Positions 3,667 through 25,599 of a DNA stretch of 44,757 bases are shown one piece after another. This stretch comes from Hyphomicrobiales bacterium (GTDB lineage Bacteria > Pseudomonadota > Alphaproteobacteria > Rhizobiales > Aestuariivirgaceae): positions 1-44,757 of the forward strand of contig JALVSR010000035.1 in NCBI GenBank assembly GCA_027024225.1. Reading direction: 5' to 3'. Each line of letters starts with the position of its first letter. Within the stretch, counting starts at the first letter, position 1. Under the pieces are notes generated by a model that did not search any database, was not told where the DNA came from, and saw only the letters and a program-made list of their open reading frames with translations. The position numbers and the translations under genes were made by a program.

Positions 3667-3755
3667 CAGAATGAGAAGCTTTTCGTGCTTCATGCGTGAC
3701 GCCCGCAGGTTGCATGTTTTCCCAGAACACCGTACTCTTTCGCCCGAGAGGAGAA

Positions 3756-4931
3756 ATGGGAGGCATGCAACCGGCAACCCAGGCGGGCACCGCCGCCACT
3801 ATTCCCGAGCCTGCGATGTTTCCCAGGCGCGCCCTGTTGCTGGTGGCGGGGCTTACGCCGCAGATCGTGACGGAAACGCTTTACGCCCTGTGCGTGAAGC
3901 GGACACCGGTCTTCATTCCCACCGAAATTCATCTGCTCACCACGAAGGAAGGCGCCGAGCGGGCGCGGCTGATGCTGCTGGGCGAGGAGCCTGGATATCT
4001 TCGGCGCTTCTGCGAGGACTACGATCTGCCCGAACTGGCCGGCGCCTTTCCCGAAGAGAACATCCACGTGGTGCACGGGCCGGATGGCACTCCGCTGCGC
4101 GACATCGTAACGGAAGAGGACAATGCCGCGGTGGCAGACGCCATCATGCGCCAGGTCCGGGAACTGGCGGCAGACGAGACGTGTGCCATTCATGCTTCCG
4201 TCGCCGGCGGGCGCAAGACCATGGGCGTGGCCCTGGCGCTGGCCATGAGCCTTTTCGGGCGGCCGCAGGATGCGCTTTCGCACGTGCTGGTCTCGCCGCC
4301 GTTCGAGTCGCACCCGGAGTTCTTTTATCCGCCGCCGCAGCCGAAGGTGTTGCTGGTGGGCGCGCCGCCGCAGCAGCGGCCCATTTCCACCGATGAAGCG
4401 GATGTGCAATTGGCCGAGCTTCCCTTTCTGCGCCTTTCGGGTCTGTTGGACAGGACGCTGCTGACAGGTGCGGAAAGCTGGCGCGAGCTGATAGCCCGCG
4501 CACAGGCGAACATTGGCGCGCCGAAGCTGGTTATCGATACCGACAAATGCCTTGTGAAGGCGGGCGGCACGACGGTGCGCATGCCGCCGGTGGCGCTGGC
4601 GTTCATGCTGATGATGGCGCGGGCGGCGCGGGAAGAACGCAAGCTGAAATGCCCTGCCGATGGCGCGCCGGACATGGAACAGGCGCGCTGGCTGCGGGAA
4701 GCCATGCAGATGCTGGGCTGCACCGGGGCGCAGCAGGAGCGCACGCGGGCAGCCCTGGCGCGGGGAATGGACAAGAGCTTCTTCGAGCGCACCAAGAACA
4801 AGGTCAACGAGGCGCTGCGCAAGGCGCTGGGGCCGGGCCCCGCAGCCCCCTATCTCATCGGCCGCAAGCGGATTGGGCAGGAATTCCTTCACGGCCTCAC
4901 CCTGCCGCCGGAAGCCATCGAGATCATCTGA
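3756..4931 (+). CDS. CARF-domain protein of the NE0113 (TIGR02584) family, ring-nuclease-like
   Basis: The protein (391 aa) has an N-terminal Rossmann-like CARF domain: strand RRALLLVAGLTPQIVTETLYAL at about residues 24-45, an invariant-looking ASVAGGRKTM loop near 150, then strand HVLVSPPF. Its C-terminal third (FERTKNKVNEALRKAL, then PYLIGRK) looks like a winged-helix segment. I see no HEPN R-x4-H motif, so it is not a Csm6-type ribonuclease by sequence. The family is listed in databases as a CRISPR-associated ring nuclease, that is, an enzyme that degrades cyclic oligoadenylate; activity here is inferred. ATG 3756 has GAGAGGAG directly upstream, so I prefer it to ATG 3696. It sits between cas6 and cmr1, 11 nt before cmr1, so it is probably cotranscribed. 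A regulatory role for the winged-helix part is an alternative. Confidence 0.75.
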   Translation: MGGMQPATQAGTAATIPEPAMFPRRALLLVAGLTPQIVTETLYALCVKRTPVFIPTEIHLLTTKEGAERARLMLLGEEPGYLRRFCEDYDLPELAGAFPEENIHVVHGPDGTPLRDIVTEEDNAAVADAIMRQVRELAADETCAIHASVAGGRKTMGVALALAMSLFGRPQDALSHVLVSPPFESHPEFFYPPPQPKVLLVGAPPQQRPISTDEADVQLAELPFLRLSGLLDRTLLTGAESWRELIARAQANIGAPKLVIDTDKCLVKAGGTTVRMPPVALAFMLMMARAAREERKLKCPADGAPDMEQARWLREAMQMLGCTGAQQERTRAALARGMDKSFFERTKNKVNEALRKALGPGPAAPYLIGRKRIGQEFLHGLTLPPEAIEII

Positions 4932-13026: not shown

Positions 13027-14553
13027 ATGACCACCCTTATCACCTTTTTGGGTCTGGGTAAAACAGACCCGAAAACCGGGCAAAAAATCTACGATGAAGT
13101 CACCTATGTTGACCCCGATTCCGACAACCGCAGGGTAACAACGCGCTATGTTGCCCGTGCGCTGGCAGAGTTTTTCACCTGCGAAAACGTGCATGTCGTT
13201 GCCACGGAACTAGCCTGGGGCACCCATGGAGATCGTCTCGCGGAAGCCTTGAATGAATTGGATATCCTCCCTGCACCGCACATCATTCCCGAGGGAAAGG
13301 ATGAGAAGGAACTGCGCCAGCAATTCCGCGTTCTGCGTGACGTCCTCGCCGAACCTACGGATGAGCTGGTGCTGGACATCACCCACGGCTTCCGCCATCA
13401 GCCCTTTTTCGCGGCCTCTGCGCTTGCAATCCTTCAGGCTGCTGGTGATCTTCCTATCAACACACGCATAGTTTATGGCGCCTTTGAAGCGGGAAATAAG
13501 GAAAATGCCACCGCTCCAATACTTGATATATCACACTTCATTGATCTCATGGGCATAGCTTTCGGCGTCTCCATCTTCATCAATACCGGCCATGCTGGAA
13601 CACTAATAGACGCCTTGAAGAGAGAGAGCGCCCGGCTGGCCTGGCGAAAACAAAAGGGGGAGCGTGACAGTTACGATGAGACTCGAAACCTTATTAATGC
13701 ATTGAACGACTTCCACGATGATCTTTCCACATTGCGCCTTCCTCATCTTATTTCCGATGCAAATGACAGATCGAGCGCATCCAGATTCCTGGAAGCAATC
13801 GAAAGGTATGGAAAGTTTTGCGACAAGGCCCACCCGGCACTCGTGCCCTTGATCGACAGGTTGCAAAAACTGGTTGAACCATTGGCCATACCTGATTTCA
13901 CCTCCCCCCAGCGGCCAGAAGCCATGCGGCATTTGGCGCAATCATTCCTGAAGTTTTCGCGTTATCTGGAAGCGGCTGCGGTGGCGCGTGAGGAGATTGT
14001 CAATCGCTTTGCGGCGGGTGATGCACTGGAAGCCGGAACGCCATATTTCGATAACAATTCTCGCCGCTTCGCAGAAAAGTTGGCTACGGATATCCAAGAG
14101 ATCCGCAATCACTTCGAATTCAGGAATGACCTGCTCCACTGTGGCATGCGCCGCATGCCCATACCTGCGCGCAAACTAAAGTCCAATGTGGAGAAACTGG
14201 TTAATTTCATGGAAGCAGTCTCTGCCAGAAAACCCCGCACCATCTTCGTCACCCGCCATGCCGGGGCGCGGGAATGGGCAGAGCGACAGGGCATCGTCAT
14301 CGACGAGGTGGTCGATCACCTCGCCCCGGATGCCATCAACCCCGGCGACCTTGTCATCGGCACCCTGCCCGTGCACCTGGTGGCCGAAATCTGCCGCCGT
14401 GGTGGGCGCTACAAGCATCTCTCCCTTGACATCCCGCCCGAGGCCCGGGGCCGAGAGCTTTCCGCCGATGACATGGAGAAATTCGGTGCCAGACTGGAGG
14501 AGTTCGTTGTTCAGTCAGTCGCAGGACGAAATGAAAGGAACAACGACCAGTAA
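13027..14553 (+). CDS. CARF-HEPN ribonuclease (Csx1/Csx2, TM1812-like) fused to a C-terminal Csx16-like ring-nuclease domain
   Basis: The 508-aa protein reads as three parts. Residues 1-180 form a CARF domain of the Csx2/TM1812 type (MTTLITFLGLGK at the start, DITHGFRHQP at 117-126). Residues 190-400 are helical and contain the HEPN signature R366-N-D-L-L-H371 (R-x4-H), the active site of Csx1/Csm6 ribonucleases. Residues about 404-495 match Csx16 (VVA1548 family): TIFVTRHAGAREWAERQG, then HLAPDAINPGDLVIGTLP, then RGRELSADDMEKFGARLEEF. Known: CARF-HEPN enzymes cleave RNA when cyclic oligoadenylate binds, and Csx16 has been reported as a cOA-degrading ring nuclease. Inferred: the fusion joins the effector and its off-switch in one chain. 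It is coupled to cmr6 (3-nt gap). Read-through of two genes is excluded because the frame is uninterrupted. Confidence 0.85.
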   Translation: MTTLITFLGLGKTDPKTGQKIYDEVTYVDPDSDNRRVTTRYVARALAEFFTCENVHVVATELAWGTHGDRLAEALNELDILPAPHIIPEGKDEKELRQQFRVLRDVLAEPTDELVLDITHGFRHQPFFAASALAILQAAGDLPINTRIVYGAFEAGNKENATAPILDISHFIDLMGIAFGVSIFINTGHAGTLIDALKRESARLAWRKQKGERDSYDETRNLINALNDFHDDLSTLRLPHLISDANDRSSASRFLEAIERYGKFCDKAHPALVPLIDRLQKLVEPLAIPDFTSPQRPEAMRHLAQSFLKFSRYLEAAAVAREEIVNRFAAGDALEAGTPYFDNNSRRFAEKLATDIQEIRNHFEFRNDLLHCGMRRMPIPARKLKSNVEKLVNFMEAVSARKPRTIFVTRHAGAREWAERQGIVIDEVVDHLAPDAINPGDLVIGTLPVHLVAEICRRGGRYKHLSLDIPPEARGRELSADDMEKFGARLEEFVVQSVAGRNERNNDQ

Positions 14554-14574: not shown

Positions 14575-15099
14575 ATGTTCGAGGCCTTCAGCAACTTCGT
14601 CATGGCCTATCTGGATCCCATCGGCGTCGTCGTGGGCCTTGTCGTTGCCGTTCCCGTATTCTGGACATGGTGGCAGGTGGTGTTTGGCGAAAAGCGCCGC
14701 ATGCGCCGCCTCTACAAGGAGGTGCAAGAAAATCCCGGTGAACGTCCCGGCATCATCATCTTTGACTTCCTGAAGGGAAAGGACGCCCGCTTGCAGGTCG
14801 AAAACTTTCGTCGGCAAGCGGACGGCCTGAAAGATGTGCCGAATGAACGTATCATCACCCTGTCACACGACAAACACATTACACCGGAGGACATCCCCGG
14901 CCTGCAACAGAAAATCCGCAGCGCTGCCAGAGAACTGATGATAGGCGGTGTTGACCGGATCCACCTCTTCTATGGTGGTCCTGCGGCCGTTGCGGCCATG
15001 ATTGGCGCCGAGTTCTCCAACATGCCGGCCACGATTTACCAGTATGATCCGACCCACGGGACTTATGTGAACTTTGGCCCGTTGCGCCTGCCAGTGTAA
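14575..15099 (+). CDS. membrane-anchored SAVED-like domain protein, putative cOA-gated effector
   Basis: A 174-aa protein with one N-terminal membrane helix (residues about 14-36, DPIGVVVGLVVAVPVFW), followed by the basic stretch EKRRMRR, which predicts a cytoplasmic C-terminal part. Residues 58-170 resemble a compact SAVED domain: strand GIIIFDFL, helix, strand ERIITLSH, then the hallmark IHLFYGGPAAVAAMIGAEF at 129-147 and a terminal strand ending in YQYD. SAVED and CARF domains bind cyclic nucleotides, and membrane-anchored versions in type III loci (for example the CARF-TM protein Cam1, and the unrelated membrane effector Csx23) act on membranes. I infer a signal-gated membrane effector, perhaps an oligomeric pore. 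It may already belong to a named family that I cannot identify here. GGGAGAGGCAGGA precedes the start. Confidence 0.65.
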   Translation: MFEAFSNFVMAYLDPIGVVVGLVVAVPVFWTWWQVVFGEKRRMRRLYKEVQENPGERPGIIIFDFLKGKDARLQVENFRRQADGLKDVPNERIITLSHDKHITPEDIPGLQQKIRSAARELMIGGVDRIHLFYGGPAAVAAMIGAEFSNMPATIYQYDPTHGTYVNFGPLRLPV

Positions 15100-15269: not shown

Positions 15270-15548
15270 ATGCGCAGAAGGCTCTACATCGTCGCCTATG
15301 ACATCTCCGACCCGAACCGCCTGCGCGCCGCCCTGCACACGGTGCGCAACTGGGCCACGGGTGGGCAGAAATCGGTGCATGAATGCTGGCTCACCCGCGC
15401 CGAGCTGGCGGATCTGCGCCGGCGCATGCGCCCCATCATCGGTAACGATGAAGAGCTGCTCATCGTGCGGCTGGATCCGCGGCAAAAGCCCGCAACGCTG
15501 GGTCTGGCCTTGCCGCCGGAAGACCCTGAGTGGTTCTACGCCGGTTGA
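15270..15548 (+). CDS. cas2: Cas2 (first copy)
   Basis: Cas2 bridges two Cas1 dimers in the spacer-integration complex. The 92-aa product is a ferredoxin-like Cas2: first strand RRLYIVAYDISDPNR with the conserved Asp at residue 11, strand VHECWLT, and a final strand LLIVRLD. ATG 15270 starts at the family N-terminus; upstream in-frame codons lack similarity. A gap of 170 nt separates it from the SAVED-like gene, with TTGACA at 15132-15137 as a possible -35 box but no clear -10. The adaptation genes may therefore be transcribed separately from the effector operon. It differs clearly in sequence from the second cas2 at 17389-17730. Confidence 0.9.
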   Translation: MRRRLYIVAYDISDPNRLRAALHTVRNWATGGQKSVHECWLTRAELADLRRRMRPIIGNDEELLIVRLDPRQKPATLGLALPPEDPEWFYAG

Positions 15549-15575: not shown

Positions 15576-16553
15576 ATGAGCACCCTATGGCTGGATCATC
15601 GCGACCTGGAACTGCGGCTGGAACCCGGCGCCTTGGTGCCATATGTCGCCGGCATGCGTCAGCGCCCTGCTCCGCTTTCCCTGCTCGAGCGCGTGGTCAT
15701 CATCGGCAACTGCCAGCTGGAGGCGCGCATTCTCGCCGGACTCGCCGCCCATGGCGTCGCTGTTTCCATCATCAACCCACGCCACCCGCGCCGCCGCGCC
15801 AGGCTGTGTGGCGATGCCCATGGCGATGCTACCATCCGCATCGCCCAGCTGGCCGCTTTCCATGATCCGGCTGCCAAATACGCTCTGGCGCATGCCTTGG
15901 TGCTGGCCAAGGCGCAGCGCCTGTTCCGCTTGGTTAAACAGATGAAGAAACAACGTCCCGACGCTAGGCTACCGCTCACCCATGCGCAGGAGCAACTGCA
16001 TAACGTGCTGGAGCAACTGCGCGGCCCCGCCGCGGATGCCTCCTTTGGCCTGGAGGCGCTGCGCGGCCTGGAAGGCGCAGCTTCCCGCGCTGGTTTTTCG
16101 GCGCTCAGCGTCGTGCTGCCGCCTTCGCTCGGCTTCGAGGGACGCAAACGCCGCCCACCGCCAGATCCGGCCAATGCCGCCCTTTCGCTGGCCTATACCC
16201 TGTTGCACCACCGCGCGGCGCAAACGGCCTGGGCCTTTGGGCTAGACCCGCTCATCGGCTTTCTGCATGAACCGGCGCATGGCCGCGAGTCCCTGGCCGC
16301 CGATCTCATGGAACCATGGCGCCCGGAGGTGGAGGAATGGATCTGGCGCATGTTTGCCGAGCAACGCCTGCGCAAGGATCACTTCTCCATCCAGCCCGAT
16401 GGCGCATGCCTGCTGGGCAAGGCCGGAAGGCGCATATTCTACCGGTCCTTCGAACGCGATCTCGCCCCCGTTTTCCGCGCGCTCAGGCTGCAAACGCGCC
16501 AGCTTGTGCGCCGCCTGCGCAAGCAGCCGCACATGGAGGAACCTGCACCATGA
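15576..16553 (+). CDS. cas1: Cas1 integrase (canonical, catalytic residues present)
   Basis: Cas1 inserts new spacers at the leader-repeat junction. The 325-aa protein has the N-terminal beta-sandwich (LWLDHRDLELRLEPGAL, then LERVVIIGNCQLEARIL) and the helical catalytic domain. Metal ligands can be placed: E166 in LRGLEGAASRAGF, H231 in IGFLHEPAHG, and D243/E246 in AADLMEPW. It should therefore be active. It begins 27 nt after cas2, and its stop overlaps the start of the second Cas1-like gene as ATGA, so the two are probably translated together and may interact. Confidence 0.92.
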   Translation: MSTLWLDHRDLELRLEPGALVPYVAGMRQRPAPLSLLERVVIIGNCQLEARILAGLAAHGVAVSIINPRHPRRRARLCGDAHGDATIRIAQLAAFHDPAAKYALAHALVLAKAQRLFRLVKQMKKQRPDARLPLTHAQEQLHNVLEQLRGPAADASFGLEALRGLEGAASRAGFSALSVVLPPSLGFEGRKRRPPPDPANAALSLAYTLLHHRAAQTAWAFGLDPLIGFLHEPAHGRESLAADLMEPWRPEVEEWIWRMFAEQRLRKDHFSIQPDGACLLGKAGRRIFYRSFERDLAPVFRALRLQTRQLVRRLRKQPHMEEPAP

Positions 16554-17392
16554 ATGCGACCTCCGCCGTTTACAACAAACGCTGCATCCATCCCCCTGCC
16601 CCACCACTGCGCAAGCCGCTGTATCTTGACGGTACACACTTGCGCAGCATCGCGCTGGAAGGCCCGGCGCTGAAGGTGGAAGATGACCTCGGCAGATACC
16701 GATTCTACCCCCTTGCCCGCTTGTCCCGCATCGTCTTGCGCGGCAGCATGCAATGCAGCACGGAAGTGCTGCAGGCCCTTCTTTCCGCCGGCCTGTCGCT
16801 CACCATCATCAGCAAGGATGGAGAAGCCCTTGGCTGGCTGGCCAGCGCCGAACCGCTGCTGATCTCCACACTGCAACAGCGGCTGGAAGAGGCGGAAGGG
16901 CTCGGCCTTTTGCAACAAGCGCTGGAAGACTGGCGACTTTCCCGTCTGCGCCTCATGATCCTGCGCCATGTGGTGCCATATCTTCCCGGCACGCATCCTG
17001 CGGATCTCAGGGCGCGCACCATGCGCAGCCGGGCAAACAGCCTCATCTATCGGCGCAGCGGCCTGGACTGGCGCAAGGTCACGCGGCGTTTCCGCCCATT
17101 GCTGCAATCCCTTGCCCTGCAACGCTTGCAAGAAGCTGGTGTGGATGCCCGATGGCTTGGCGCGGATGCGGCACGGCCAAACATGACGCGCCTGTTCGTC
17201 CAGCTCCTGGAATGGGTGCTCTGGGGCGCTGCGCTGCGCCGGCGCAAGCTCACGGCGCCAGAAAGCTGGAGCGGAGAAATCTCCTTTTTCGAAGCACAAC
17301 GCGAAGTGCTGGACCAGGAAATGCAGGCTCTCTTGGCCGACATGGAGCACAACCTGCAGGATGCCATCTTCCACCTGAGGAGCCAGGCATGA
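16550..17392 (+). CDS. second, divergent Cas1-like protein without a recognisable catalytic triad
   Basis: A 280-aa protein whose N-terminal half looks like a Cas1 beta-sandwich: KPLYLDGTHLRSIALEG at about 22-38, YPLARLSRIVLRG at 53-65, MQCSTEVLQALLSAGLSLTIIS at 67-88. The C-terminal half is helical but lacks the Cas1 signatures: no G-x-E-G-x-x-x-R motif and no G-F-x-H motif followed by D-L-x-E. The region LQSLALQRLQEAGVDARWLGA at about 185-205 aligns in style with the segment before the catalytic His, and no His follows. I infer a catalytically silent Cas1 paralog that may form mixed complexes with the active Cas1. It overlaps cas1 upstream and the second cas2 downstream, each by 4 nt (ATGA). 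A distant alternative is an unrelated RAMP-like protein, but the N-terminal match is good. Confidence 0.7.
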   Translation: MNATSAVYNKRCIHPPAPPLRKPLYLDGTHLRSIALEGPALKVEDDLGRYRFYPLARLSRIVLRGSMQCSTEVLQALLSAGLSLTIISKDGEALGWLASAEPLLISTLQQRLEEAEGLGLLQQALEDWRLSRLRLMILRHVVPYLPGTHPADLRARTMRSRANSLIYRRSGLDWRKVTRRFRPLLQSLALQRLQEAGVDARWLGADAARPNMTRLFVQLLEWVLWGAALRRRKLTAPESWSGEISFFEAQREVLDQEMQALLADMEHNLQDAIFHLRSQA

Positions 17393-17730
17393 GCGGACGC
17401 GTGCTTTTTCACTTGTTGGCGTACGATATTGCGAATCCGACAAGGCTCAAGGCCGTGGCGCGAATAGCGGAATCCTACGGAGTTCGCATTCAGTATTCGC
17501 TTTTCCTCATGCGCCTGTCACCACCGCGGCGAGATCAGCTTCTGGCGAAACTGGAGAGGATAATCCATCCACGTGAAGACGACGTGCGGCTTTATCCCTT
17601 GCCCGCCCGGCCAGAATGGGAGACCATGGGAAAGGCCATCTGGCCGGAGGGCGTCTGGCTGGCAGGAGAGTGGCCGGAAAATGCGGAGGAGGAGGAAGCG
17701 GACACACAAACAGAGGAAAATGGCCCTTGA
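17389..17730 (+). CDS. cas2: Cas2 (second, divergent copy)
   Basis: A 113-aa Cas2: first strand VLFHLLAYDIANPTRLK with the conserved Asp at residue 13, followed by IQYSLFLMRLS and a strand DDVRLYPLP. It carries a C-terminal extension that ends in a very acidic tail (residues about 96-113, EEEEADTQTEE). It is much closer to ordinary Cas2 than to the first copy only in general fold; the two share little sequence beyond the family pattern. Its start overlaps the stop of the second Cas1-like gene (ATGA), which pairs cas1b with cas2b. It is the last gene before the leader, 150 nt from the first repeat. Confidence 0.88.
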   Translation: MSGRVLFHLLAYDIANPTRLKAVARIAESYGVRIQYSLFLMRLSPPRRDQLLAKLERIIHPREDDVRLYPLPARPEWETMGKAIWPEGVWLAGEWPENAEEEEADTQTEENGP

Positions 17731-17880
17731 GAACTTGCCTTCACAGATAAACAGGGGAAGAACATGATCGCCACGCACGATAGCTGCTCCATTTTACCCT
17801 GCGGCAAATATGCTACCGCGCCACTTTTCGATAACCCCTCCTCCAAGAGACTGAAAGGCATGGAAAAAGGAGTATGAAGC
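17731..17880 (+). promoter_or_regulatory. CRISPR leader
   Basis: A 150-nt non-coding stretch between cas2b and the first repeat. It is placed as leader because the degenerate, truncated repeat lies at the far end of the array and because the register history (repeat 12 carrying both edges) runs from right to left. TATGCT at about 17808-17813 could be a -10 box, without a good -35. The last leader bases before repeat 1 are TATGAAGC. In the older integration register the leader would have ended two bases later, after GT. Confidence 0.75.
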
Positions 17881-18675
17881 GTGCTGCAGCCGAGCCCTGA
17901 AGAAAAAGGGATTAAGGATGTGGTGGTGGGCACTCTGCCCGTTCACCGTGCTGCAGCCGAGCCCTGAAGAAAAAGGGATTAAGTCAAGCCATTTCTTGAT
18001 TTCAGTTCGATGCAGGTGCTGCAGCCGAGCCCTGAAGAAAAAGGGATTAAGTTGGCACCACAATCGATGCAGGTGACGGTGAATGTGCTGCAGCCGAGCC
18101 CTGAAGAAAAAGGGATTAAGCCTTGCGCGCCAACTCGGCGGCGCGCTCGGCAGAGTGCTGCAGCCGAGCCCTGAAGAAAAAGGGATTAAGGCTATCCAAA
18201 TCCAACCTTTCGATGGCCGCAGGTGCTGCAGCCGAGCCCTGAAGAAAAAGGGATTAAGTCATCACCGCGGCGCTCAAAGCGAGGGATGGGGTGCTGCAGC
18301 CGAGCCCTGAAGAAAAAGGGATTAAGGTTGCGCGTCTTGTCGCTCTGGCCAAGGATTTGGTGCTGCAGCCGAGCCCTGAAGAAAAAGGGATTAAGCCCAC
18401 GCACGTTCCAGCCGTTTGGCCGCCTTTCGGTGCTGCAGCCGAGCCCTGAAGAAAAAGGGATTAAGCCGTAACCCTTATTCATATCGCCCTCCGTTTTAGG
18501 TGCTGCAGCCGAGCCCTGAAGAAAAAGGGATTAAGCCACGTGCTCGGGAATAAGGTGCTTATCTCGAAGGTGCTGCAGCCGAGCCCTGAAGAAAAAGGGA
18601 TTAAGCTTTGCTAAGTGTGTTGTAGTCGGAGCAGAGCAGGTGCTGCAGCCGAGCCCTGAAGAAAAAGGGATTAAG
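17881..18675 (+). repeat. array section A: leader-proximal repeats 1-12 beginning GTGCTGCAG
   Basis: Repeat starts at 17881, 17948, 18016, 18085, 18155, 18223, 18291, 18360, 18430, 18500, 18570 and 18640 all carry GT before GCTGCAG. After ATTAAG the next two bases vary (GA, TC, TT, CC, GC, TC, GT, CC, CC, CC, CT for repeats 1-11). The duplicated unit is therefore 36 nt, from GT to AAG. Spacers S1-S11 are 31-34 nt in this register. Confidence 0.93.
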
Positions 18676-18677
18676 AC
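18640..18677 (+). repeat. repeat 12: 38-nt hybrid carrying both register edges
   Basis: This copy has the 5' GT of section A and the 3' AC of section B, so it is 2 nt longer than either unit. It marks the point in the array where the integration register changed. With the leader on the left, it was the leader-adjacent repeat when the change happened: its GT was then the end of the leader, and its AC was left attached to the older spacer. Confidence 0.9.
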
Positions 18678-18711
18678 ATGATAGCGTTTAAGATGCTTTC
18701 CAGTGCATTGC

Positions 18712-21700
18712 GCTGCAGCCGAGCCCTGAAGAAAAAGGGATTAAGACCGCCTTGGCGGGGGCGTTGAACCGGTTCAACGCGCTGCAGCCGAGCCCTGAAG
18801 AAAAAGGGATTAAGACCCTACCCCGACAACCACGTGGCGCGGCATTCCGCTGCAGCCGAGCCCTGAAGAAAAAGGGATTAAGACCATGGCTTTTGACATA
18901 TTTCACCATATCTTGGAGCTGCAGCCGAGCCCTGAAGAAAAAGGGATTAAGACGAATGTTGGGGATTGAAATCCCCAGATAGCGGCTGCAGCCGAGCCCT
19001 GAAGAAAAAGGGATTAAGACACCATCGCCGGGGCTGTGGGTTGCATACTCGAGCTGCAGCCGAGCCCTGAAGAAAAAGGGATTAAGACTGTTATTCAAGG
19101 GGCTTGATCTCCTCCGGAGCGCTGCAGCCGAGCCCTGAAGAAAAAGGGATTAAGACGTCTGGGTGTGCGAAACGCGGCAACGGAATAGGCTGCAGCCGAG
19201 CCCTGAAGAAAAAGGGATTAAGACGCATCTTCATGCGTGCAGTCCAGTTCGCGCTGAGCTGCAGCCGAGCCCTGAAGAAAAAGGGATTAAGACCAGCTTT
19301 GCGCCGAACTGCTCCATCTCATCGGCGCTGCAGCCGAGCCCTGAAGAAAAAGGGATTAAGACAAGATTTTGCTCTGACTGCCCCGCACGTCTTGCTGCAG
19401 CCGAGCCCTGAAGAAAAAGGGATTAAGACATTCTCGGAGCGCGTCCTGAATGGCGTCAAATGCTGCAGCCGAGCCCTGAAGAAAAAGGGATTAAGACACC
19501 AGGGCTGTATGTGGCATACTCGAAGCCATATGCTGCAGCCGAGCCCTGAAGAAAAAGGGATTAAGACGCTGAAGCTCGATGTAGAGGCGCTCGCCAGGGG
19601 CTGCAGCCGAGCCCTGAAGAAAAAGGGATTAAGACCACACCCGACCGGGAGCCTTCTTGCGGTCGTCCGCTGCAGCCGAGCCCTGAAGAAAAAGGGATTA
19701 AGACATGGCCGCTTTGCGGCCCAGGACGGTGTAGACGGCTGCAGCCGAGCCCTGAAGAAAAAGGGATTAAGACCCCGGAGATCAGCCTGAATGGCGTCGA
19801 AGTCGCGCTGCAGCCGAGCCCTGAAGAAAAAGGGATTAAGACAGCGCCCGAAATAACTCTCATATCCGGGCACGAGCTGCAGCCGAGCCCTGAAGAAAAA
19901 GGGATTAAGACCACGCCGGTCAGACACGATTGCCGCCACGATGGTGCTGCAGCCGAGCCCTGAAGAAAAAGGGATTAAGACGATTCCACAGTATAAATAA
20001 TGCGGCCATCTTCGGCTGCAGCCGAGCCCTGAAGAAAAAGGGATTAAGACGGCAAGTAGAACGCGATGGGGGTGTAATAACTGCTGCAGCCGAGCCCTGA
20101 AGAAAAAGGGATTAAGACCAGTCACCGACAACGACTTTTTCGCGGGTGGTGGCTGCAGCCGAGCCCTGAAGAAAAAGGGATTAAGACTCCATGAGAACCG
20201 TTGCGGCCTCATAGACAGGGCTGCAGCCGAGCCCTGAAGAAAAAGGGATTAAGACTCCATGAGAACCGTTGCGGCCTCATAGACAGGGCTGCAGCCGAGC
20301 CCTGAAGAAAAAGGGATTAAGACGTAATCGCTGCTGAAATTGTAGAATGCGGGGCTGCTGCAGCCGAGCCCTGAAGAAAAAGGGATTAAGACCCATGCTG
20401 ACCACCAGATTGTCACCGGCAAACTGCTGCAGCCGAGCCCTGAAGAAAAAGGGATTAAGACATGGAACCGGCAATGCGGTTCCGTTCCTCCGGGGCTGCA
20501 GCCGAGCCCTGAAGAAAAAGGGATTAAGACCCTCGCCGGCTTGGCGCTTTCGCGCCAAATCAACGCTGCAGCCGAGCCCTGAAGAAAAAGGGATTAAGAC
20601 CTCCTCCTGCTGGCTTTACGCGGCCATGCACCAGCTGCAGCCGAGCCCTGAAGAAAAAGGGATTAAGACAACGTCTTGGCGTAAATCTTACGCTCCAGCC
20701 TGGCTGCAGCCGAGCCCTGAAGAAAAAGGGATTAAGACTGTGCACACAAACCAATCTTGCCAGCTCGCCAGGCTGCAGCCGAGCCCTGAAGAAAAAGGGA
20801 TTAAGACGCAAGTCAATGTCCTCTGATACCAGCACCAGGGCTGCAGCCGAGCCCTGAAGAAAAAGGGATTAAGACTAGCCTTCCTTAAGTTCTTCTTCCA
20901 TTCTTTTCGCTGCAGCCGAGCCCTGAAGAAAAAGGGATTAAGACATTTCCAATAGCAAGGCTTGCACCTGTGCTTGCGCTGCAGCCGAGCCCTGAAGAAA
21001 AAGGGATTAAGACCGGGCGTGCGCCCCGAACTTCCCGGGACGCGGGGCTGCAGCCGAGCCCTGAAGAAAAAGGGATTAAGACTATCTCTGGCCAGGATTT
21101 TCCAGCGTTGCAGGCTGCAGCCGAGCCCTGAAGAAAAAGGGATTAAGACATCACGCACAGAGCGGTAACCCAGGTCGCGCCGGCTGCAGCCGAGCCCTGA
21201 AGAAAAAGGGATTAAGACCAGTGCCTGAAGTAGTTGTTTTGCTTGTCGACGCTGCAGCCGAGCCCTGAAGAAAAAGGGATTAAGACTATCTGAATAAGGT
21301 TTTCTTGGCGCAACCTGATTCGCTGCAGCCGAGCCCTGAAGAAAAAGGGATTAAGACCTTTAGGGCCGGGGCGGGTAGCCCGTCGGGGCAGCTGCAGCCG
21401 AGCCCTGAAGAAAAAGGGATTAAGACTCAACGCCTGTCCGCGCATGGCGCGCGGATGGCGCTGCAGCCGAGCCCTGAAGAAAAAGGGATTAAGACGTGCG
21501 GCCAGCCCCCACTACGCGGGCGCTGCAAGCTGCAGCCGAGCCCTGAAGAAAAAGGGATTAAGACGTCTAGGTCGGCCACGGGTTTCAGGAATAATTGCTG
21601 CAGCCGAGCCCTGAAGAAAAAGGGATTAAGACCGCTGCATGATACTATTGAGGAATCCTTCTATGCTGCAGCCGAGCCCTGAAGAAAAAGGGATTAAGAC

Positions 21701-24349
21701 CCCGCCGCACGCGCATCCGCCAATGGCGGAAACGCTGCAGCCGAGCCCTGAAGAAAAAGGGATTAAGACAGCGATGCTTGGCGGGGTGGCGCGCGGCACT
21801 AGGCTGCAGCCGAGCCCTGAAGAAAAAGGGATTAAGACGCGGCACGCGACACGTTTGCCTGTGTGGTGCCGCTGCAGCCGAGCCCTGAAGAAAAAGGGAT
21901 TAAGACGCGGAAAGCGGACTGATATTTCTGCTTCGATGCTGCAGCCGAGCCCTGAAGAAAAAGGGATTAAGACTTGTGCTGCCATTTTCTGGCCTTCATC
22001 CCACGCTGCAGCCGAGCCCTGAAGAAAAAGGGATTAAGACCTTGTGCCGCGCCTTGCCTGCCCTACCCCGGCAGCTGCAGCCGAGCCCTGAAGAAAAAGG
22101 GATTAAGACGCCTTCGTCAGCTTTCTTTACGGTATCAATAGGCTGCAGCCGAGCCCTGAAGAAAAAGGGATTAAGACTTGCTTCTCCTTTTATTTTGTAT
22201 TTTTTCATGCTGCAGCCGAGCCCTGAAGAAAAAGGGATTAAGACGCAGCCAAAAAACGAATGGCACTAAGAATATCAGCTGCAGCCGAGCCCTGAAGAAA
22301 AAGGGATTAAGACCGTATAGGAAATACAGAGTATACTATTAAAGATATGCTGCAGCCGAGCCCTGAAGAAAAAGGGATTAAGACGGAAGCGCGCAGCGGC
22401 CTTGTCGGCTGGCCAGCGCTGCAGCCGAGCCCTGAAGAAAAAGGGATTAAGACCGTGCCGGCTAACCGGGCCGGCTATGTGCCCCGGCTGCAGCCGAGCC
22501 CTGAAGAAAAAGGGATTAAGACGGCAATGCCCCGGGGCTTCGATGCAGCGCCTCGCTGCAGCCGAGCCCTGAAGAAAAAGGGATTAAGACATGGCTTTCA
22601 TCTCCTAGTGCCGCGCCTATCTTGCTGCAGCCGAGCCCTGAAGAAAAAGGGATTAAGACATGGCCATCACGTAACTGAACAAACGTTCGAGGCTGCAGCC
22701 GAGCCCTGAAGAAAAAGGGATTAAGACTCTGGAGCGCTCGGCTACAGTGTCACCGAGCAGGCTGCAGCCGAGCCCTGAAGAAAAAGGGATTAAGACCATA
22801 TACCGCGGGCGCTTCACCAGCACCTGAGGCTGCAGCCGAGCCCTGAAGAAAAAGGGATTAAGACCAACGTCCTGGCTCAAGTGTTGCCGCTGATACGTGC
22901 TGCAGCCGAGCCCTGAAGAAAAAGGGATTAAGACACGCATTCTTGGCAGCGTATTCCGCTTTATGCGCGCTGCAGCCGAGCCCTGAAGAAAAAGGGATTA
23001 AGACTATCAGTAGGCCACCCATAGACGCGCGCCAAGCTGCAGCCGAGCCCTGAAGAAAAAGGGATTAAGACGTGGCTACCGAAACAAAGTCCGCAAGCTG
23101 CTGCGCTGCAGCCGAGCCCTGAAGAAAAAGGGATTAAGACCGAATGGCGCGCACCTCCCAGCCGGTAGCGCGGCTGCAGCCGAGCCCTGAAGAAAAAGGG
23201 ATTAAGACCCATCTCGATGTCGTAGCCCGCCTCAGCAAGCGCTGCAGCCGAGCCCTGAAGAAAAAGGGATTAAGACCGCTCCCGATGATGGCTCCGACAT
23301 CTGGCGCGGCTGCAGCCGAGCCCTGAAGAAAAAGGGATTAAGACCGGCTGCGTTGCTTAGTCTTCCAGAGCCTCGAGCTGCAGCCGAGCCCTGAAGAAAA
23401 AGGGATTAAGACTCTTTTGGCCAGCCATAGGCCTTCGCCAGTGGCTGCAGCCGAGCCCTGAAGAAAAAGGGATTAAGACGTGGCTACCGAAACAAAGTCC
23501 GCAAGCTGCTGCGCTGCAGCCGAGCCCTGAAGAAAAAGGGATTAAGACCATCGGCGAAGACAGCGGTGTCTTCGCCGATGGCTGCAGCCGAGCCCTGAAG
23601 AAAAAGGGATTAAGACTGAACCGCCTTGCCTCTTCGCTGCCTGCATAGCTGCAGCCGAGCCCTGAAGAAAAAGGGATTAAGACTCAACAAGATAAACAAT
23701 GTCGTAGGGGCTGGCCGCTGCAGCCGAGCCCTGAAGAAAAAGGGATTAAGACTCAACAAGATAAACAATGTCGTAGGGGCTGGCCGCTGCAGCCGAGCCC
23801 TGAAGAAAAAGGGATTAAGACCTGCACGCTCATACGTACCTTCTTGGCCAGTTTGCTGCAGCCGAGCCCTGAAGAAAAAGGGATTAAGACAATGTGCATC
23901 ATACGGTTAGCCGCCGGCAGCGGCTGCAGCCGAGCCCTGAAGAAAAAGGGATTAAGACCAACGGGCATGGGTGCCCTTGCCGCTTGGGCGCGCTGCAGCC
24001 GAGCCCTGAAGAAAAAGGGATTAAGACGTAGCTCTCGGCGCACGCGCATCCGCCAGTGGCGGCTGCAGCCGAGCCCTGAAGAAAAAGGGATTAAGACACG
24101 TTCACGGGCCATGTGTGAGTCATGATTCATCGCTGCAGCCGAGCCCTGAAGAAAAAGGGATTAAGACGGTACCATCAACAAGCACCTGCGCCGCATAATA
24201 AGCTGCAGCCGAGCCCTGAAGAAAAAGGGATTAAGACTTAGCAAGGACTAGGTGTCCCTTTCGAACTGCTGCAGCCGAGCCCTGAAGAAAAAGGGATTAA
24301 GACTATTGTGCTTGTAACAGAGCACATTCAGATGGCTGCAGCCGAGCCC
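18712..24349 (+). repeat. array section B: older repeats 13-95 ending AAGAC
   Basis: From 18712 on, every complete repeat ends in ATTAAGAC and the two bases before GCTGCAG vary (for example GC, CC, GA, CG). The duplicated unit is again 36 nt but lies 2 nt to the right of that in section A. Repeats 13-94 are complete; repeat 95 is truncated. Confidence 0.93.
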
Positions 24350-24691
24350 AAGGGGACAGATATTGGACCAGTCCTGTTCATTCTTATCATGAAAGGAATG
24401 TGATTTCCCAAATTATTTAGGTAAAAAGGCAGAAGGACGGTGCCATGGGTAGGTTTTGGGGGTGGCCGATATCTTGGAATGGCAGCGAAACGCACGGCTG
24501 GTGAATATTTCTTCATCGATGTGCGCCGATGGAAGCGCGAGGGACTACTCGAGCTCCATCAAACCTTTGGGTGGTAGTAGCGCACTCAAGATGGAAAAAT
24601 TAGTGCTTCCATAGAGGTGTACACACTACCAGACTAGGTGATCCTTTCCTATCGATACCGCAGGCCTGAGATCCCAAACGAAAATTAAATT

Positions 24692-25599
24692 GAGTGATTT
24701 CAGTCTGTTGTGATTCCCTTTGGATGAATGATTCGGAGGGGATCACAATGGCATGGACTGAAATCACCCGAAAGCAGTATGACAGACGCGGCCTGCGTTA
24801 TGCAAGTGATTGCACGGATGAAGAATGGGCTCTGATCGCGCTTTTTTGCAGCGCCCCTCCAAGGTCGGCTGTCCCCGAAAGTGGGACATGCGCGAGATCT
24901 GGAACGCCATTCAGTATATTGCCGCAACGGGTTGTCAATGGGCGATGCTGCCGAAGATTTTCCGCCCTTCACCACGGTGCAATATCACTTCTACCGGCTG
25001 CGCGACGGCGGCGTGCTTGATCTCATCAATGAGGCGCTGGTGGCCGCCAGCCGCCTGGCGTCTGGCAGAGACGCCTCGCCCACGGCCGGCGTCATCGACA
25101 GTCAGAGCGTGCAAACCACTGAAAGCGGAGGAATTTCCGGCTATGACGCCGGCAAGAAGGTGAAGGGGCGCAAGCGTCATATCACGACCGATACGCAGGG
25201 CAATGTGCTGTGTGCGGTGGTGCATTCAGCTGGTGTTCAGGATCGCGACGGCGCCGTTGACCTGATTGCCATGGTGCGGGATGTGTTCCCCACGCTCAAA
25301 CTGCTGTTCGCCGATGGCGGTTACGCCGGAAACAAGCTGCAAACGGCGCTTGAAGCCATGAACGGCCCAAGGATCGAAATCGTCCGGCGGAACGAAAGGG
25401 CGAAGGGCTTTGTCGTCATGCCAGGCGATGGGTGGTGGAGCACACTTTCGCCTGGCTGGGCCGTTGCCGAAGACTGGCGAAAGACTGGGAAAAGCGCATC
25501 GCCTCATCCGAGGCATGGCTCCTCGTCGCCGCCATCCACAGGCAAGCGCGATATCTGGCAAAAGCAATAGAATCAAGGAGTTAATTTTGAGTCAGACTC
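24692..25599 (+). mobile_element. IS5-type (IS427/IS1031 group) insertion sequence, about 908 bp, degenerate
   Basis: The transposase remnant inside is of the IS5 group. Proposed ends are GAGTGATTTC on the left and GAGTCAGACTC on the right; the inner part of both ends shares a GATTC/GAATC match, but the inverted repeat is imperfect and I could not find a clean target duplication. The boundaries are therefore approximate. The element interrupts the zinc-ribbon gene, whose two halves resume on each side. Confidence 0.7.
24748..25584 (+). pseudogene. IS5-family transposase with at least three frameshifts
   Basis: The reading starts at ATG 24748 (MAWTEITRKQYDRRGLRYA), changes frame near 24850 (KVGCPRKWDMREIWNAIQ), again near 24960 (PPFTTVQYHFYRLRDGGV, GVIDSQSVQTTESGG with the DDE Asp), and again near 25425 (RRWVVEHTFAWLGR with the C-terminal catalytic Glu region), ending at TAA 25582-25584. 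Each piece is close to the standard transposase, so decay is recent, but no functional enzyme can be made without multiple shifts. Confidence 0.85.

Follow-up and report, generated by a model that had tools for sequence, protein, structure and literature searches.

The rulers by which CRISPR integrases set the length of a new repeat have been described from engineered insertions and deletions in type I-E, I-B, II-A and V-A systems, and the available accounts of the first three place the ruler on motifs inside the repeat. In the type II-A system of Streptococcus thermophilus, according to the accessible part of the report, an indel upstream of the internal ruler motif shifts the second integration site (site 2) together with the motif and alters the length of the repeat, the natural end also being used in vivo at a relatively high level (PMC6895254). 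The account given in the same text describes motif-anchored rulers inside the repeat, with the same response of site 2 to upstream indels, for types I-E and I-B (PMC6895254). The type III-like Cas6-RT-Cas1-Cas2 integrase of Thiomicrospira duplicates the adjacent 35 bp in full-site events, 12 of 14 of which fell at the leader-repeat junction and 2 elsewhere, in the portion of that study available (PMC8102632). For the type V-A system of Francisella novicida, the introduction of the paper names the size of Cas1-Cas2 as the ruler for the leader-distal site, as a general view, so that the idea of a length ruler is not in itself new; the available text further states that base additions to and deletions from the repeat cut full-site integration, repeat-end sequence and length both being of importance (PMC13034035). 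The leader of S. thermophilus Uy02, according to the accessible text, naturally lacks 1 nt at position -1, and 9 of 23 mutants acquired spacers within the array (PMC5338259). The word "ruler" has no occurrence in the available part of a review on type III adaptation (PMC9048733), and no report of a register switch in a natural array was recognised among the titles and abstract openings covered by a literature search, with subscription papers mostly outside its scope.

The array described here represents a natural experiment on how CRISPR integrases fix repeat length. It starts at position 17881 of the window (the whole analysed stretch of 44,757 nt, contig JALVSR010000035.1 of a Hyphomicrobiales bacterium), and has on its left a type III-B locus encoding Cas6, Cas10/Cmr2, Cmr3, Cmr4, Cmr5 and CARF-type proteins. 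The type III-B assignment is given by the NCBIfam matches of Cmr2 (258.5 bits, cutoff 79.4) and Cmr4 (213.8 bits, cutoff 87); Cmr3 reaches 58.7 bits, under the NCBIfam cutoff of 100.4, and Cmr5 was matched by PADLOC. The gene at 13027-14553 encodes a CARF-HEPN protein fused to a Csx16-like domain, its neighbour (14575-15099) a two-TM CARF/SAVED protein, and another CARF protein is found at 3696-4931. The locus has its own Cas1 and Cas2, which are optional in type III-B, arranged as two cas2-cas1 pairs between the III-B genes and the leader (Table 1).

Table 1. Coordinates of the adaptation genes, leader and array features in the window
Feature	Coordinates	Strand	Basis or remark
cas2a	15270..15548	+	NCBIfam TIGR01573, 27.7 bits (cutoff 24.5); start placed, from comparison with relatives, at the methionine of MRRRLYI
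cas1a	15576..16553	+	TIGR00287, 171.1 bits (cutoff 71.7)
cas1b, diverged second Cas1	16550..17392	+	PADLOC PDLC01185, E=2.6e-10
cas2b	17389..17730	+	TIGR01573, 38.8 bits (cutoff 24.5)
Leader, ends GAAGC	17731..17880	+	Homologous to the leaders of L033, L036, L019 and L018
Leader motif GCGGCAA	17801..17807	+	Distance to the repeat start 80 bp (new) and 82 bp (old)
GT, putative net gain of 2 bp where leader and repeat core meet	17881..17882	+	Leader comparison with relatives
Repeats 1-11, new register, GT + core, 36 nt	17881..18605	+	Edge count
Repeat 12, 38-nt hybrid, GT + core + AC	18640..18677	+	Edge count
Repeats 13-94, old register, core + AC, 36 nt	18712..24303	+	Edge count
Truncated terminal repeat	24335..24349	+	Read from sequence

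A two-base switch of register within the array

All 94 full repeats carry an identical 34-nt core, GCTGCAGCCGAGCCCTGAAGAAAAAGGGATTAAG, by a count of exact copies from 17883 to 24301. A total of 95 repeats had been given in the first-pass annotation, of which 94 are full and the 95th is only the truncated terminal copy. The dinucleotide GT directly precedes the core in 12/12 of repeats 1-12 and in 2/82 of repeats 13-94, and AC directly follows it in 83/83 of repeats 12-94 and in none of repeats 1-11 (0/11); repeat 12 is the only one with both GT and AC. The tally of edges over all repeats is clean and not mixed, and the pattern described in that annotation is confirmed, with 36-nt GT...AAG units at the leader side, 36-nt units ending in AAGAC further on, a hybrid of 38 nt between them and a fixed length of 36 nt in both registers. 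At a chance of 1/16 per repeat, the presence of GT in 11/11 repeats has a probability of about 6e-14. The bases after AAG in repeats 1-11 are GA, TC, TT, CC, GC, TC, GT, CC, CC, CC and CT. The register is switched by two bases at one point in the history of the array, between the acquisitions of spacer 12 and spacer 11, as had been proposed.

When each part is cut in its own register, the new spacers measure 31-34 nt (n=11, mean 33.0) and the old ones 30-35 nt (n=82, mean 32.6). The two sets are alike (Mann-Whitney p=0.20), and spacer length therefore gives no hint of a further change. The hairpin predicted for the repeat is identical in both registers. A terminal G is present in 8/11 of the new-register spacers (17881-18639) against a fraction of 0.33 of the 82 old ones, which may be chance; this end-base bias was left unused, many positions having been inspected. 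Three pairs of duplicate spacers (34=35, 76=82 and 85=86, within 18606-24303) presumably arose by recombination between repeats. About 345 bp beyond the truncated last repeat (24335-25570) there are overlapping ORFs that resemble what we take to be a broken transposase.

A block switch was looked for by edge inspection in 12 other arrays, some of them seen in part, and was found in none. These comprise L033 (18 copies), L036 (73 exact-seed copies, one additional copy carrying a mismatch), L057 (9), two arrays of L058 (3 and 8), L055 (25), L056 (11), L037 (10), L040 (10), L067 (158), L065 (3) and L061 (27), the last being another array of the genome under study; the array of L059 and that of L044 (three repeats, k-mers only) are excluded. 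The arrays seen in part are L033, L037, L040, L061 and L067, the leader end of L067 falling outside the view, and a sample of 12 gives no frequency for CRISPR arrays at large. In L057, L055, L056 and one array of L058 the right side of the final copy is degenerate, and L061 has a scattered edge bias, with A two bases before the seed in 22/27 copies. L067 (1-12001), a distant relative, has an array of at least 158 repeats in a single 37-nt register. Arrays with only one register were also found among the closer relatives, where the first-pass annotation had suggested looking: all counted repeats of L033 and L036 are 36 nt long and end in AAGAC (18/18 and 73/73 exact-seed copies), and the single repeat of L019 likewise ends in AAGAC. 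These ends lead us to regard AC as the ancestral register and GT as the derived one.

The same arrangement would be obtained if two arrays with the same core and different registers had been joined inside repeat 12, by recombination or by misassembly, as a join within the shared 34-nt core gives exactly one 38-nt hybrid and the genome is a draft known here from its assembly. Against such a join, the core is absent elsewhere in the genome (all 94 places with up to 3 mismatches fall in this array) and no GT-register array was found elsewhere; moreover, the leader distances described below would still demand the extra 2 bp in the donor array. We consider this origin very unlikely. A search of 10 same-genus genomes for the repeat gave one place only, the repeat of L019; the exact 34-nt core had 0 matches in the genome contigs searched, and CCCTGAAGAAAAAGGGATTAAGAC had 0 matches in the viral contigs searched.

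Leader comparison and the direction of the shift

The leader was compared with those of four relatives, two Albidovulum MAGs (L033 and L036) and two same-genus genomes recorded as Hyphomicrobiales (L019, whose contig ends shortly after repeat 1, and L018, whose contig ends inside it). Its position on the left, as annotated at first, is borne out by its location between cas2b and the array and by homologous leaders at the same place in all four relatives, and fits the truncated repeat at the right end. A motif picked after inspection of the leaders, GCG(G/A/T)CAA, has its first base exactly 80 bp upstream of repeat 1 in 4/4 relatives. In the window its start is placed 82 bp from the core and 80 bp from GT. 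In ungapped alignments over 90 bp, with 17 offsets tried, the offset that omits GT is the best against 4/4 relatives (42, 43, 36 and 32 matches of 90), the margin being narrow with L018 (32 matches against 30 for the next best). All six pairs of relatives peak at offset 0 (9 offsets tried). The relatives share 24 invariant columns; the window agrees with 18 of them at the GT-omitting offset, and none of the other offsets among the 51 tried gives more than 12.

A closer look at the last 30 bp of the leader gives a more ambiguous picture, with 8/17 conserved columns matched at the GT-omitting offset, 10/17 at offset 4 and 7/17 at offset 0, and the place at which the 2 bp entered within the leader end is therefore not fixed by the alignment. 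The leader of L033, the nearest relative, likewise ends in GAAGC, and entry at the junction itself, not elsewhere in the last leader bases, would be the simplest arrangement. Where IHF assists integration, it binds the leader and bends it; with regard to the IHF consensus, the only element noted is a TTG about 30 bp from the junction that is invariant in the four relatives and reads CTG in the window. In the more distant L057 (Cas1a 40% identical) a similar motif is placed 1 bp further from a 37-nt repeat.

Since the motif lies 80 bp from the new repeat start and the alignments agree, the leader-side cut kept its place relative to the leader. This reverses the direction assumed in the first-pass annotation, according to which cutting took place after ...GT in the beginning and 2 nt upstream of that point later: the new cut is the one found at the ancestral leader distance in the relatives. 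Site 1 thus seems to have stayed at a fixed distance from the leader although the repeat was displaced, and the repeat most likely came to lie 2 bp further from the leader, for which the arrival of GT at the junction is the simplest cause.

A leader that already ended in GT would need no such mutation, as a single chance acquisition 2 bp upstream could have stripped AC from the first repeat and the integrase, for want of AC, would then have kept to the new register, with the leader-side sequence the same before and after. In that scenario GT has to belong to the leader, contrary to what is seen in the four relatives, and the bases after AAG differ in the successive first repeats with no visible influence on the register. 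Such a self-perpetuating slip is, to our judgement, highly improbable and the least probable of the origins considered here.

Adaptation proteins and the proposed rule of cutting

The alignment of Cas1a contains what we take to be the Cas1 Glu and His..Asp motifs, presumably catalytic. The second protein, Cas1b, reaches 21.2 bits, under the NCBIfam Cas1 cutoff of 71.7, and the Glu, His and Asp of Cas1a have no aligned counterpart in it, so it probably lacks the catalytic residues. The PADLOC family that it matches is described as "Cas1, diverged variant, second in the loci", which makes this a double-cas1 locus. A normal Cas1 and a diverged one with its own Cas2 are found in five loci (the window and the four relatives with homologous leaders), and the diverged family is present in 3/69 genomes of the bacterial family and in 8/398 of the phylum sample, the genome under study being counted in both. 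Searches with Cas1a in the order sample (3/397 at E 1e-60) and the class sample (2/385), both with this genome counted, and in the family of L033 (5/394 at E 1e-45) added only distant relatives. The adaptation genes of the window (15576-16553) are nearer to those of the Albidovulum MAG L033 (4976-5953) than to those of the same-genus L018 and L019, which suggests that the locus was horizontally transferred.

A swap of cas1 or cas2 was considered as the cause of the switch and found no support: L033 is the nearest neighbour of the window in all four adaptation proteins (Cas1a 76%, Cas1b 55%, Cas2a 86% and Cas2b 62% identity), which leaves no sign of an exchanged gene. More generally, a change in trans, which comes near the version given in the first-pass annotation, would yield the same array if the leader had always ended in GT and a mutation or exchange of Cas1 or Cas2 had moved the complex 2 bp upstream. 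The presence of two cas2-cas1 pairs, one Cas1 changing fast (compare Cas1b with Cas1a above), is in keeping with it, but the old leader would have to exceed those of all four relatives by 2 bp and no conflict among the protein trees of the five loci hints at a swap. We regard a change in trans as quite unlikely, and the integrase itself would have been unchanged by the switch.

The reading that we prefer, and consider very probable, is a gain of 2 bp at the leader-repeat junction with an integrase that keeps a leader-set cut and a distance of 36 bp. A net 2 bp, most simply GT, would have come to lie exactly between the leader (..GAAGC) and the repeat that was then the first and is now repeat 12. 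The first cut of Cas1-Cas2 would stay at its leader-set place, which then lay 2 bp beyond the boundary of the old repeat, and the second, exactly 36 bp on from the first, would fall 2 bp inside the old repeat end. With site 1 set by the leader and site 2 placed 36 bp on, each of the 11 later acquisitions would copy GT and the core, leaving outside the repeat AC in the first event and the first two spacer bases in the later ones. In those later events the bases following AAG are spacer bases and were never drawn into the repeat.

When the growth of the array was scripted under four rules, three of which read the repeat, only the one with site 1 set by the leader and site 2 at site 1 + 36 regrew 17869-18711 exactly. 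The test is partly circular, as the spacers used in it had been delimited in the observed register, and its value lies in one simple rule covering all 11 events and the hybrid. With both cuts read from the repeat, GT is left outside and the old register continues, and with site 1 set by the leader and site 2 by an internal motif 38-nt repeats are produced; both outcomes mismatch the array. The sequence history is likewise at odds with a ruler tied to a motif inside the repeat, 0/11 new repeats carrying AC and all being 36 nt long, and the array speaks for a length ruler anchored in the leader. At site 2 the first base of the bottom strand is G in the old register and C in the new one, and any preference for G at this site, if present, would have been overridden. 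As a tentative generalization, which may well prove too broad, type III-B integrases with an active and a degenerate Cas1 pair might place both cuts by reference to the leader only; neither boundary would be set by the repeat sequence, and any small indel at the junction would rewrite the register thereafter. The argument as a whole draws on a single array of a draft genome of 155 contigs and on four close relatives, no sister strain with the earlier junction being among them.

Predicted crRNAs and relation to known systems

In systems of this kind Cas6 usually cuts 8 nt before the repeat end, and type III systems take pairing of the tag as self. If this holds here, such a cut, counted from the end of the old repeat, would give the old crRNAs the tag AUUAAGAC and leave the 11 newest crRNAs tagged with AUUAAG plus the first two spacer bases, so that the array would yield two kinds of crRNA. 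Should the target be the source of these two tag bases, base pairing with it would follow; the 11 newest memories may then be less effective or act differently, and the discrimination between self and non-self could weaken. This prediction for type III immunity can be tested. A protospacer search with window positions 17881-24350 gave no match among phages and five weak matches among plasmids.

One natural change of +2 bp separates here the cues of leader, repeat and length, and 11 successive acquisitions agree on leader plus length; other arrays could be searched for similar switches, which would serve as mutagenesis data obtained for free. As in strain Uy02, going by the accessible text (PMC5338259), a small natural change at the junction accompanies an altered place of acquisition, but in the window the leader end stayed in use and the register shifted. 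Unlike the type V-A system of F. novicida in the available text (PMC13034035), the window array took 11 acquisitions after the change. The full-site duplications of the Thiomicrospira integrase fit a length rule, although that study, in the part available, concerns an RT-Cas1 fusion in vitro and no register switch in a natural array (PMC8102632). There is a parallel with the II-A system as described in the accessible report, in that the first cut is made at the leader-repeat junction and the second follows a distance rule that keeps length (PMC6895254). In II-A this distance is measured from a repeat motif (PMC6895254); the repeat of the window stayed at 36 nt, and the distance therefore seems to be counted from site 1.
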